Assembly: GCA_011176535.1 (NCBI GenBank)
Contig: DUEP01000109.1
Location: forward strand, 1 to 32,254
Reading direction: 5' to 3'
Origin: Anaerolineae bacterium
GTDB lineage: Bacteria > Chloroflexota > Anaerolineae > Anaerolineales > DRMV01
Length of the DNA stretch: 32,254 nt
Shown piece after piece: positions 18,941-26,781 of the stretch. The translations under genes and the position numbers were made by a program. How positions within the stretch are numbered: the stretch's first letter is position 1; each line of letters opens with the position of its first letter. The notes beneath the pieces are model-generated. The model did not search any database, was not told where the DNA came from, and saw nothing but the letters and a program-made list of their open reading frames with translations.

Positions 18941-23227
<4,287 letters not shown>

Positions 23228-23234
23228 GCAGCGG

Positions 23235-23240
23235 CCTCCT
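23235..23240 (-). promoter_or_regulatory. Ribosome binding site deciding the rpoC GTG start
   Basis: A perfect AGGAGG on the minus strand, 7 bases before GTG 23227. The frame stays open upstream to 23329, but the extra residues have no conserved content and no ribosome binding site. Confidence 0.8.
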
Positions 23241-23385
23241 GAAACGGTAAACTGGGCTTTTGACAAGGTGGACCAGCGCAGAGCCTTTGGCCCCCTAGAT
23301 GACGGCCCTCGAGAGCGAAACTGGAGCAAGATATCTGTCGCAACGCATCATCGCCGGCCCGCCATCCCACCAATGAAGGGAACAT

Positions 23386-23431
23386 AAACACAGAAAACAA
23401 GCGCGTGAGAACCTTCGCTCTCAAGCGCTTG
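23386..23431 (-). terminator. Terminator-like hairpin in the rpoC leader, possible attenuator
   Basis: On the minus strand CAAGCGCTTGAGA (23431-23419) pairs with TCTCACGCGCTTG (23410-23398), 12 of 13 positions, with an 8-base loop. It is followed at once by TTTTCTGTGTTT (23397-23386). It lies between the rpoC promoter and the rpoC start. A smaller hairpin, AGCGC-N7-GCGCT (23440-23424), uses part of the left arm and cannot form at the same time. The geometry fits transcription attenuation; it might instead end transcripts of the upstream kinase gene. Confidence 0.6.
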
Positions 23432-23465
23432 CTCCGCGCTCGTGGCTCGCTATCCTTTTCTGCAT
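23421..23465 (-). CDS. Possible 14-codon leader peptide of rpoC
   Basis: ATG 23465 opens MQKRIASHERGASA and stops at TGA 23423-23421. The predicted transcription start of the rpoC promoter is about 3 bases upstream, so the frame would be read from a nearly leaderless 5' end. The stop codon lies inside the left arm of the terminator-like hairpin, so a terminating ribosome would cover that arm. There is no run of one amino acid as in classic amino-acid attenuators. There is no independent evidence that it is translated, and a frame of this length can occur by chance. Confidence 0.35.
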   Translation of the reverse strand: MQKRIASHERGASA

Positions 23466-23474
23466 GCTGCAGCA

Positions 23475-23503
23475 ATTATAATCGGCCTCTTTAAGCCCGT
23501 CAA
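23475..23503 (-). promoter_or_regulatory. rpoC promoter
   Basis: On the minus strand TTGACG (23503-23498), a 17-base spacer, then a perfect TATAAT (23480-23475). The -35 overlaps the stop codon of the upstream kinase gene. The predicted start is near 23468, which leaves a leader of about 240 bases before rpoC. Confidence 0.75.
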
Positions 23504-26500
23504 GGTTTGCCTGCGGAATCCTCTCCGGCAGGCTGGCGCAAAGGCAGGGCGATGAAGAAGGTGCTGCCCTTGCCCAATTGGCTTTCCACCCAAACGCGGC
23601 CATGGTGGCGATCGACAATGGATTTCACAATAGCCAGCCCCAGGCCCGACCCCTGCTGGCGCTGCACATCCCTCCGCTTGACCCGGAAGAAACGCTCAAA
23701 CAAGCGCGGCTGGTCCACCGGCGCGATCCCCACCCCGGTATCTTCAACGGCAAACAGCACGCCGTCCTCGCCCTCCAGCGGACCGACCCGCACCGTCACC
23801 CGCCCCTCGGCCGGGGTGTACTTGATGGCATTATCCACTAAATTGCCCAGCGCCCGCTCCAGCAGATCTTCATCCGCCTCGATCAGGGGGGGCGTGCTGG
23901 CCGCCACTTCCATGTTCAGTTGAATGTGCTTGGCCCGGGCCTTCGGCTCGCCAGCGGCCACCACCCGTCGCACGACCTCCTCGGGAGACACCTGGCGTAA
24001 CCGCAGACCTACTCCGGCCTCAATGCGGCCCAGGTCCAGCAAATTGTTCACCAGGTGCGCCATGCTGTCCACCGCCTGCAGGATTTGCCGCAGGTATTGC
24101 CGCTGGCGCTCGTTCAGATTGGCGGTCAGGTCCAACATGGTGGCGTAGCCCCGCAGCAGGGTGAGGGGCGAGCGCAGGTCGTGGCTCACCGTAGCCACGA
24201 ATTCCGACTTGAGGGCGTCCAACTCTTTGTACCGGGTGATGTCGCGCAACAGGGCCACCCGCCCCACCATACGCGCGCCCATGCGCACCTCGCTCACCGA
24301 AGCGAAAAACACGCGGCCATCCTCCAGGGCGACCTCGGCCACCCGAGGGCGCTGTGCCCCTTTGGCGACGAGCAATTCCGCCAGGGAAGGCACAGGCAAC
24401 ACTTCGGAGAGGGGCAGCCCCACCTGATCCGGGCGCATTCCCAAGGCCTCCAGCGCTGCCGGATTGCACAAAAGCAGATTGCCCCGCACATCGGTCACCA
24501 GGATAGGATCCGGTGAAGAGGCGAGAATCGCTTCTAGGCGCTGCTTGTCCAGTTGCACTTCCAGCAAAAGGCGCACATTGGCCAGAGCCAAACTCAACTG
24601 GCTGGCCAGGGTGCGGAGGTAATCCAACAGATGAGGCTCTGGGGTGCGCCCTTCTGGGAGAAGCACATAAAACGCACCAAAAAGGTGCTCCTCATAACGC
24701 AGGGCCAGGGCCACCAAACTACCCACAGAGGTCTCCCGTGATAGGGGCCATCCTGGTACCCCTTGTGGCTGTCGCAAGATCACCTGTGTCTTGCTGTGGG
24801 TCCATTCCAAAACTAAGCGGTCTATCTTTTCCACGACTTCTGGCGTCGTGCCAACACCATACCCCAACCGTTCTGAACGCCGTTCACCGGCGGGCAAAGC
24901 GTCTGGCTGAAGCACCACACGCGCTAAAAGGGGGCGCACCTGCTGCGCCGCCTGTAGCACGGGTTGCACCAGCGTTTCCACCCGATTGGCCCTGGCAGTG
25001 CGCTGGCTGACCTCTAAAAGTTGCGCCAACTCGGTCAAGCGTTCTTTCAGTCGGCGGCGCATGGTCTCAAACGCCTGCCGCAACTGGCTGACCTCATCAA
25101 CTCCTTCCACCGTGAGAGCATGATCCAGGTCGCCGCGGGCGATGCGTTGGGCCTCCCTGGCCAGAGAACGCAGGGATTGGGTCACCACCCGCAGCAGACT
25201 ATACATCCCCAGCAACGAAAGGCCGTAGAGGGCCAGCGCTACCATGGCCAACGGCCAGGCGATGCGAAAGGCCATTTGACGCACCTGGGTCATCGGCAAA
25301 AGCACCACCACCCACCAGGGCCGCCCCAGGGTGCGTTGCGCCATCATCCAAAAACGCTCTCCAGCGGGACTATCCACCACAAGTAACTGGCCTTGAAGGC
25401 CCGTCCAAGACTCAGGCTGGAAAGCCACTGGCGAGTGGGCTAAATCCAAAGGATATAGCACTCGCCCTTCCTCGTCCAGGATAATACCCAGGCCACGGTC
25501 ATCTTGCAAAGAGGCCAATACCTGGGTGATAGGTTCACTAACTGGACTCAGAGCGAGGTCCGCCCGGCCGATGAGCACCAGCCCTTGCTTTTTGAGGGGC
25601 ATAATGAAACTGACCCAACCGGCCCGTTGCTGCCCCAACGCCGGAGAAGGGATGATTTGCATGGGCACGCCGCTCAAGGCGAACGGCACTGCTGACCATT
25701 CATCGGGGCTTAACCGCAACCCCTGCTCGGAGGGGTAAGCCGCCTGAATCCGCCCCTGGGCGTCAACCACAAGCAACCGGTTGAAAAACACCTCCTGGGG
25801 GTAGTACGCCGCCTGCAGCGCCTCCTCCAACGACGCGCTCGCCTCCCCGTGTTCCACCTCCTCGGCCAGCGCCTGGAGGTGTTGTTGACCAGCCTCCACA
25901 AAGGAAGGGATGCTGGTCGCGGCCAGACGCGTGACGACCAGCAAACGCTCGCGCAACATTTGTCGGGCCACCTGTACCGACACCACCCCACTCACCACCA
26001 CCAGGGTCAGCCCAATCCCCACCGCCAGGGGGAAGGAAAGCCCCGCAAACCGCGCCGTCAGGCTGCGTTCCATCGGGGAGGGAACCGTGGCTTCTTCCTC
26101 CCGCCGACCCCAGGCGCACACAGGCAGCGATGAACAGAGCCAAGCCACGCCGCCCACCAGCAGTAATTCCAGCCCGCGAAAGGCCAACAGCGCGCCATAG
26201 CTTCCCGGTGCGATCCAGGTATCGGGATGGCTGAACCCGTACACCAGGGCTTCCCCCAGGAGCAGCGCTGCATAGGTCGCCAGGGCCATCAAGGCGCTCC
26301 CCCAGGGGCGGCGCAACACCCGAAAGAAGCGGGTCCGATAAGGCTGAAAGGCCGCCCAGGCCATGGCCCCCGCCAGGGTCACCTCAACCCAGAGGGAAAA
26401 AGCGGTATGCGTCCACAGCAAACCGCGCGCCGCGCCGACCAGAAGGGCCAGCACCATGGCCGGAAGAACGCCTAACCAGCCCGCCGCCAGCCCCCAAGAG

Positions 26501-26781
26501 AGAGAGCCCAAAGGCAGCCAGAGGGCCACACGCCGCTCCACCAGAGGGTTCCAGGGAAGTGCCGCCTGGGTGGGATAGGCTTTCCACCATGCCCCAAGGC
26601 CCACCAGGGCTAAGAGCAGCACGGCCAGGAGCGTGTAGCCGCTGCTCCAGGGCCGCCGCCGCCAGCGACGCCACCACACCCCCCCCAAGAGCAACCCCAC
26701 GCCCCACACGATCCACACCCCCCACTCCCATCCTCCGGTGGGCCAACGCCAGTACCAGGATGCGGGCTGCCACCATGCCAT
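23500..26781 (-). CDS. Large membrane-bound histidine kinase (orphan) with HAMP, GAF and PAS domains
   Basis: The 1093-aa protein has a Trp-rich N-terminus with about six or seven membrane helices (residues 19-270). A probable extracytoplasmic sensor domain resembling a Cache fold follows (about 280-490: FFNRLLVVDAQGRIQAAYPS and GLGIILDEEGRVLYP). A further membrane helix (about 495-525) leads to HAMP (about 526-580), a GAF-like domain (about 590-745), PAS (about 748-860: ILASSPDPILVTDVRGNLLL), HisKA with His867 (VSHDLRSPLTLL) and an ATPase domain (N box NLVDNAIKYTP, about 976-986; G1 DTGVGIAP; G2 GSGLGLAI). No response regulator is adjacent, so its partner is elsewhere. The start is ATG 26781, with AAGGGG about 8 bases upstream. 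It is divergent from rplS, and its stop codon lies under the rpoC promoter. Confidence 0.92.
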   Translation of the reverse strand: MAWWQPASWYWRWPTGGWEWGVWIVWGVGLLLGGVWWRRWRRRPWSSGYTLLAVLLLALVGLGAWWKAYPTQAALPWNPLVERRVALWLPLGSLSWGLAAGWLGVLPAMVLALLVGAARGLLWTHTAFSLWVEVTLAGAMAWAAFQPYRTRFFRVLRRPWGSALMALATYAALLLGEALVYGFSHPDTWIAPGSYGALLAFRGLELLLVGGVAWLCSSLPVCAWGRREEEATVPSPMERSLTARFAGLSFPLAVGIGLTLVVVSGVVSVQVARQMLRERLLVVTRLAATSIPSFVEAGQQHLQALAEEVEHGEASASLEEALQAAYYPQEVFFNRLLVVDAQGRIQAAYPSEQGLRLSPDEWSAVPFALSGVPMQIIPSPALGQQRAGWVSFIMPLKKQGLVLIGRADLALSPVSEPITQVLASLQDDRGLGIILDEEGRVLYPLDLAHSPVAFQPESWTGLQGQLLVVDSPAGERFWMMAQRTLGRPWWVVVLLPMTQVRQMAFRIAWPLAMVALALYGLSLLGMYSLLRVVTQSLRSLAREAQRIARGDLDHALTVEGVDEVSQLRQAFETMRRRLKERLTELAQLLEVSQRTARANRVETLVQPVLQAAQQVRPLLARVVLQPDALPAGERRSERLGYGVGTTPEVVEKIDRLVLEWTHSKTQVILRQPQGVPGWPLSRETSVGSLVALALRYEEHLFGAFYVLLPEGRTPEPHLLDYLRTLASQLSLALANVRLLLEVQLDKQRLEAILASSPDPILVTDVRGNLLLCNPAALEALGMRPDQVGLPLSEVLPVPSLAELLVAKGAQRPRVAEVALEDGRVFFASVSEVRMGARMVGRVALLRDITRYKELDALKSEFVATVSHDLRSPLTLLRGYATMLDLTANLNERQRQYLRQILQAVDSMAHLVNNLLDLGRIEAGVGLRLRQVSPEEVVRRVVAAGEPKARAKHIQLNMEVAASTPPLIEADEDLLERALGNLVDNAIKYTPAEGRVTVRVGPLEGEDGVLFAVEDTGVGIAPVDQPRLFERFFRVKRRDVQRQQGSGLGLAIVKSIVDRHHGRVWVESQLGKGSTFFIALPLRQPAGEDSAGKP

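Follow-up and report, generated by a model that had tools for sequence, protein, structure and literature searches.

The leader of rpoC in most sampled Anaerolineales carries a conserved hairpin and U-rich tail directly after the promoter, which we interpret, at roughly two chances in three, as a promoter-proximal transcription attenuator of this gene, i.e., a terminator or a terminator-like pause; RNA polymerase output in these bacteria would thus probably be held down at an early stage of transcription. The case is built from sequence evidence, namely the promoter, the hairpin with its conservation and covariation, its restriction to rpoC and its spacing. The original prediction that no rpoC attenuator of this form had been described agrees with the open papers searched, in which none was found; subscription journals were mostly not covered, and the novelty of the element is therefore provisional.

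The window, i.e., the whole 32,254-nt stretch of DNA that was analysed, carries the following features around the rpoC leader:

18941..23227, minus strand: rpoC, RNA polymerase subunit beta', with a GTG start at 23227 (TIGR02386, 1677 bits)
23235..23240, minus strand: rpoC Shine-Dalgarno sequence AGGAGG (from sequence)
23383..23397, minus strand: U-rich tail UUUUCUGUGUUUAUG, matching the conserved GYUUUUGUUUGUCU (family alignment; Carafa score)
23384..23432, minus strand: match to R1, a covariance model built from 38 sequences (46.4 bits, E = 8.6e-9 per genome, R1 E-values being rough)
23398..23431, minus strand: hairpin CAAGCGCUUGAGA (23431-23419) / UCUCACGCGCUUG (23410-23398), 12 of 13 positions paired, the conserved core of the element
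23421..23465, minus strand: 14-codon near-leaderless frame MQKRIASHERGASA (from sequence; not conserved across the order)
23424..23440, minus strand: possible small competing hairpin AGCGC/GCGCU (23440-23436 / 23428-23424; from sequence, not conserved)
23475..23503, minus strand: rpoC sigma-70-type promoter TTGACG-17-TATAAT (promoter scan; bases conserved in homologous leaders)
23500..26781, minus strand: upstream sensor kinase (HAMP/PAS/HisKA/HATPase), whose stop overlaps the rpoC -35 hexamer

The downstream gene is certainly rpoC. The near-consensus promoter originally predicted ahead of it was confirmed, TTGACG (23503-23498), a 17-nt spacer and TATAAT (23480-23475) matching 11 of 12 consensus bases and placing the predicted transcript start near 23468 on the minus strand. 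The 1.1 kb scanned contains 2 promoter-like sites versus 0.2 in shuffled sequence, and among 101 non-redundant homologous rpoC leaders TATAAT is found in 94 and a -35 TTGA in 90. The rpoB and rpoC genes are unlinked, being on separate contigs in the window's genome (G000:C79 and G000:C109, respectively) and more than 1 Mb apart in three complete Anaerolineales genomes (G028, G111 and G073), and what precedes rpoC in this order is a kinase or other sequence, not rplJL-rpoB.

The 94-nt leader of the window folds at -39.9 kcal/mol (z = -3.76), a value equalled by 1 of 200 shuffles, and its hairpin and tail obtain a d'Aubenton-Carafa score of +17.6, which lies in the terminator range. The hairpin was missing from the output of a simple terminator scan of the region, probably owing to its internal mismatch. 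The leader occurs once in the window's genome, ruling out a repeat or mobile element. No Rfam family matches it at the gathering threshold, the single match up to E 10 being P8 (15.7 bits, E 2.4).

Among 121 related genomes, mostly metagenome assemblies, rpoC N-termini were found in 111 and the upstream regions could be read for 107; in nearly all of these 107 regions a hairpin comes after a strong promoter, and most have a GCUUUUGUUUGUCU-like tail. A DNA search found conservation in two families, confined to the hairpin region and every time before rpoC, and the sequence between transcript start and hairpin shows no conservation across families. The conserved leader element is the hairpin plus tail, GCGCUUG-YNUUUGUUUGUCU, with weak or differently sequenced hairpins in families f13, f15 and part of f1. 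Of the structures that the original prediction expected to be kept in relatives, the main hairpin is retained and covaries, while the competing hairpin is not conserved and the short frame is lost in several families. Covariation was counted in the 38-sequence alignment only, because model-fitted alignments lean towards structure: both partners had changed in 8 of 13 pairs, where shuffles gave 5.1 and reached this count in 2 of 500, and 22 further pair types were seen versus 16.7 (0 of 500 as high); three stem pairs are invariant.

The element is also specific to its gene. In most relatives R1 matches the rpoC leader best of all sites in the genome, usually as the only strong match, and R1 also picks out the rpoC leaders of f19, f24, f36 and f64, which belong to other orders of the class; matches are scarce in the rest of the phylum. 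A second gene family carrying the element was considered and rejected, most other R1 matches being unrelated hairpins. In one genome (G014) an R1 match lies at a contig end, and the visible part of this leader is identical to that of the genome's rpoC. An exact pattern for the 3' half, GCGCTTGYNTTTGTTTGTCT, has 97 sites in 84,980 species genomes: 88 are less than 700 nt before rpoC, 3 run off contigs and 6 are in unrelated phyla, the last being roughly the number that we estimate for chance. A matching element was not found in the rpoB leaders of this order. Overall, the element stands before rpoC in most sampled Anaerolineales and almost nowhere else.

The quality of the tail as a terminator varies among lineages. 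A positive intrinsic-terminator (Carafa) score is obtained for 29 of 101 elements, among them that of the window's genome, the majority in f1 and some in f7, f8 and f9; scores in f12 are nearly all negative, its tail CCUUUGUUUGUCU being a poor U-tract, so that a pause or another role may apply. The NusG motif TTNTTT is missing from the tails of several families. A hairpin-stabilised regulatory pause that is not a terminator, with polymerase waiting at the UUUGUUUGUCU tail during factor loading, would account for the many tails that are poor for release, for the conservation of bases past the U-tract (TTGYC in 75 of 103) and for the fact that few other hairpins have TTTT-TTGTCT tails in G028 and G073, of which 200 kb each were scanned. 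It is the strongest of the alternatives and nevertheless unlikely, given good terminator scores in several families, the window's genome included. The same rarity at other hairpins disfavours a generic terminator tail of the clade, although a similar tail is found in rRNA leaders: in L256-L263, a hairpin with TTTTnTTGTCTG-like tails lies between tandem 16S rRNA promoters, recalling the rpoC tail, with a boxA-like TTAACAACTGA downstream of the second promoter. Antitermination of the boxA/boxB type was set aside for rpoC, the rRNA boxA TTAACAACTGA being absent by eye from its leaders.

The leader had originally been read as a ribosome-sensing attenuator, in which a ribosome, on reaching the end of the short frame, occludes the left arm, so that termination fails and rpoC output tracks translation capacity. 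The anatomy of the window fits this: the frame begins, as originally noted, about 3 nt into the predicted transcript (ATG at 23465-23463), and its TGA (23423-23421) does lie within the left arm of the 12-of-13-pair terminator-like hairpin with its U-tract. Left-arm stops, with differing codons, also occur in L020, L004, L092, L109, L112, L035, L182 and L129. However, the frame is not conserved across the order, and its phase varies. Every leader of f1, f7 and f8 has an ATG close to the transcript start and no leader of f2, f4, f10 and f11 does, and in f12 any ATG is usually met at once by a stop. Among the 31 frames open to the hairpin, the stop is in the left arm in 9, as against 10.0 expected for a random frame because GCGCTTGAG holds TGA in one frame, and the whole element is read through in 18 (18.7 expected). 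The frame also differs between sister genera, running straight through the hairpin in g5, a genus of the same family as the window's genome; in leaders of g5 (L010-L014 and L017) the frame lies at a constant 31 nt from the hairpin, and the peptides contain ...LAFVCL or LAFMCL. A slight excess of openness exists in f1, f7 and f8, where 15 of 20 frames stay open as far as the hairpin against an expectation of 11.0 +/- 2.2, a count of 15 or more arising in 25 of 500 shuffles; the frame may have a lineage-specific role there, the excess being too weak to build on.

The pairing of the smaller, mutually exclusive hairpin of the original prediction is possible, but the 5' half and left arm of the window's leader fold at chance level (z = -1.4, 9 of 100 shuffles as good), and no competing upstream (antiterminator) hairpin is conserved, the mean z over 101 leaders being +0.11. 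With starts lost in whole families, stops placed as in a random frame and no conserved antiterminator, blockage of the terminator by a terminating ribosome, and with it the dependence of rpoC output on translation capacity, is unsupported as a general mechanism and on the whole improbable; attenuation is therefore kept, and ribosome sensing dropped in that general form. In f12 (e.g., L037, L038 and L052), GTTGGATRTAAAAAACGAG is conserved within the first 20 transcribed nucleotides and varies in length, and is given this variable length probably non-coding.

The position of the element is informative in its own right. Over the 101 leaders, its distance from the -10 box has a median of 36 and a standard deviation of 5.2 (promoter positions were picked by score, and this spacing may lean slightly towards the best-scoring site), whereas its distance to rpoC ranges from 16 to 260 with a standard deviation of 54.8. 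Tight spacing to the promoter with loose spacing to the gene indicates that the element is placed by transcription start, not by translation. In some leaders the hairpin ends about 30-48 nt ahead of the rpoC start codon, and transcripts from this promoter must therefore cross it. Together, these two observations point to an early step of transcription, and argue against translational control and against the terminator of an upstream gene. A stand-alone small RNA, or a hairpin for mRNA processing or stability, is very improbable: promoter and hairpin could give a transcript of about 85 nt, but the 5' part before the hairpin is not conserved across families, the element's position is tied to the promoter, and a 13-pair stem is a short substrate for RNase III. 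Least probable of all is a terminator of the upstream gene lying by chance 3' of the rpoC promoter, since the element, although in the window's genome fewer than 100 nt separate the kinase stop from the hairpin downstream of it, keeps its fixed spacing to the promoter and is retained without a preceding kinase (one was recognised in 21 of 101 leaders).

Under promoter-proximal attenuation, RNA polymerase would initiate about 30 nt upstream of the hairpin, which would form with the enzyme over the U-rich tail and cause part of the complexes to stop, the remainder continuing into rpoC. We infer such stopping or pausing in vivo, as well as a factor that sets the readthrough. The readthrough fraction would depend on the elongation machinery itself, through polymerase supply, NusA or NusG, amounting to autogenous control of beta'; this is the probable source of control because stem and tail are conserved, and antiterminator and leader peptide are not. 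The often poor U-tract likewise suggests that a factor, for example NusA or NusG, assists. How RNA polymerase subunits are kept in balance is understood for few bacteria, and best where rpoBC are linked. With rpoC standing alone behind a conserved, gene-specific leader of tight promoter geometry, autogenous control by attenuation can readily be tested here.

Several families appear to add a further component downstream. In 24 of 27 leaders an SOS-type (LexA-like) box, with the sequence TAGCACNNNTGTTCKA or one close to it, starts 21 nt past the right-arm GCGCU, these leaders being drawn from f3, f4, f5, f8, f9 and f11 plus two further records (among the box leaders are L042, L059, L060, L064, L068, L073, L077, L085, L089, L105 and L107). 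A search of 101 whole genomes returned nearly 80 copies of the box versus about eight for a reversed control, and TAGCACNNNTGTTCKA stands before recA in six genomes, the window's included, and also before radA and repair genes; lexA genes have a related box, mostly GAACNNNNGTTC, which is not identical. The rpoC leader of the window's genome is without the box. A similar sequence, TAGTACATATGTTCTA, is present in one f10 leader (L066), outside the 24 of 27, and five f12 leaders (L037, L038, L041, L052 and L054) have a GCGACTACACG-like motif about 10-15 nt after the tail, at the site occupied by the SOS-type box elsewhere. The occurrence of the box in at least six families suggests, from sequence, damage-linked control of rpoC in those lineages, and the rigid 21-nt spacing suggests that box and hairpin are coupled, possibly by roadblock-assisted termination through a box-bound repressor. 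A tentative and rather doubtful synthesis would have one leader device setting beta' output throughout the order by sensing the elongation machinery, with at least six families coupling it, at the rigid 21-nt spacing, to an SOS-type repressor bound just in front of the stopping polymerase; DNA damage would then relieve roadblock-assisted termination and release polymerase synthesis. If real, the box would make synthesis of a core subunit of polymerase respond to DNA damage.

The rpoC element shares features with several known systems. Leader-peptide attenuators, of the trp type or as in ilvB1 of M. tuberculosis (PMC13236596), resemble the window in having a short frame upstream of a terminator, but differ from rpoC leaders at large, where neither frame nor antiterminator is conserved and no regulatory codons were seen. 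The E. coli rplJL-rpoBC attenuator (Barry et al. 1980; Newman et al. 1982; Steward and Linn 1992, cited in PMC1242208 and PMC6181997) is the functional precedent, in placing a terminator-like hairpin upstream of polymerase subunit genes, with partial readthrough in E. coli. According to the works cited, rifampicin leads to readthrough there and autogenous control was suggested, and a cyanobacterial rpoBC leader was noted as a counterpart. The E. coli attenuator, however, is inside a ribosomal-protein operon, whereas the element described here directly follows its own promoter and precedes rpoC alone, rpoB being unlinked and its leaders lacking the element, unlike E. coli rpoBC.

Similar in design is the rimP-leader (Naville and Gautheret 2010, PMC2965389), a short terminator with a conserved stem before the nusA operon, described with no antiterminator and with a proposed protein factor. 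Both systems combine a short conserved terminator-like stem with a core transcription gene and no antiterminator; they differ in the gene and in the stem, GGGc...gCCC in the rimP-leader versus AGCGCUUGAG here. Finally, the NusA/NusG-dependent intrinsic terminators of B. subtilis have a weak A-U/G-U stem base and distal interruptions of the U-tract (PMC8060035), and the rpoC element resembles them, in sequence features only, by its A-U/G-U stem base and interrupted tail, to which it adds a conserved GUCU end.
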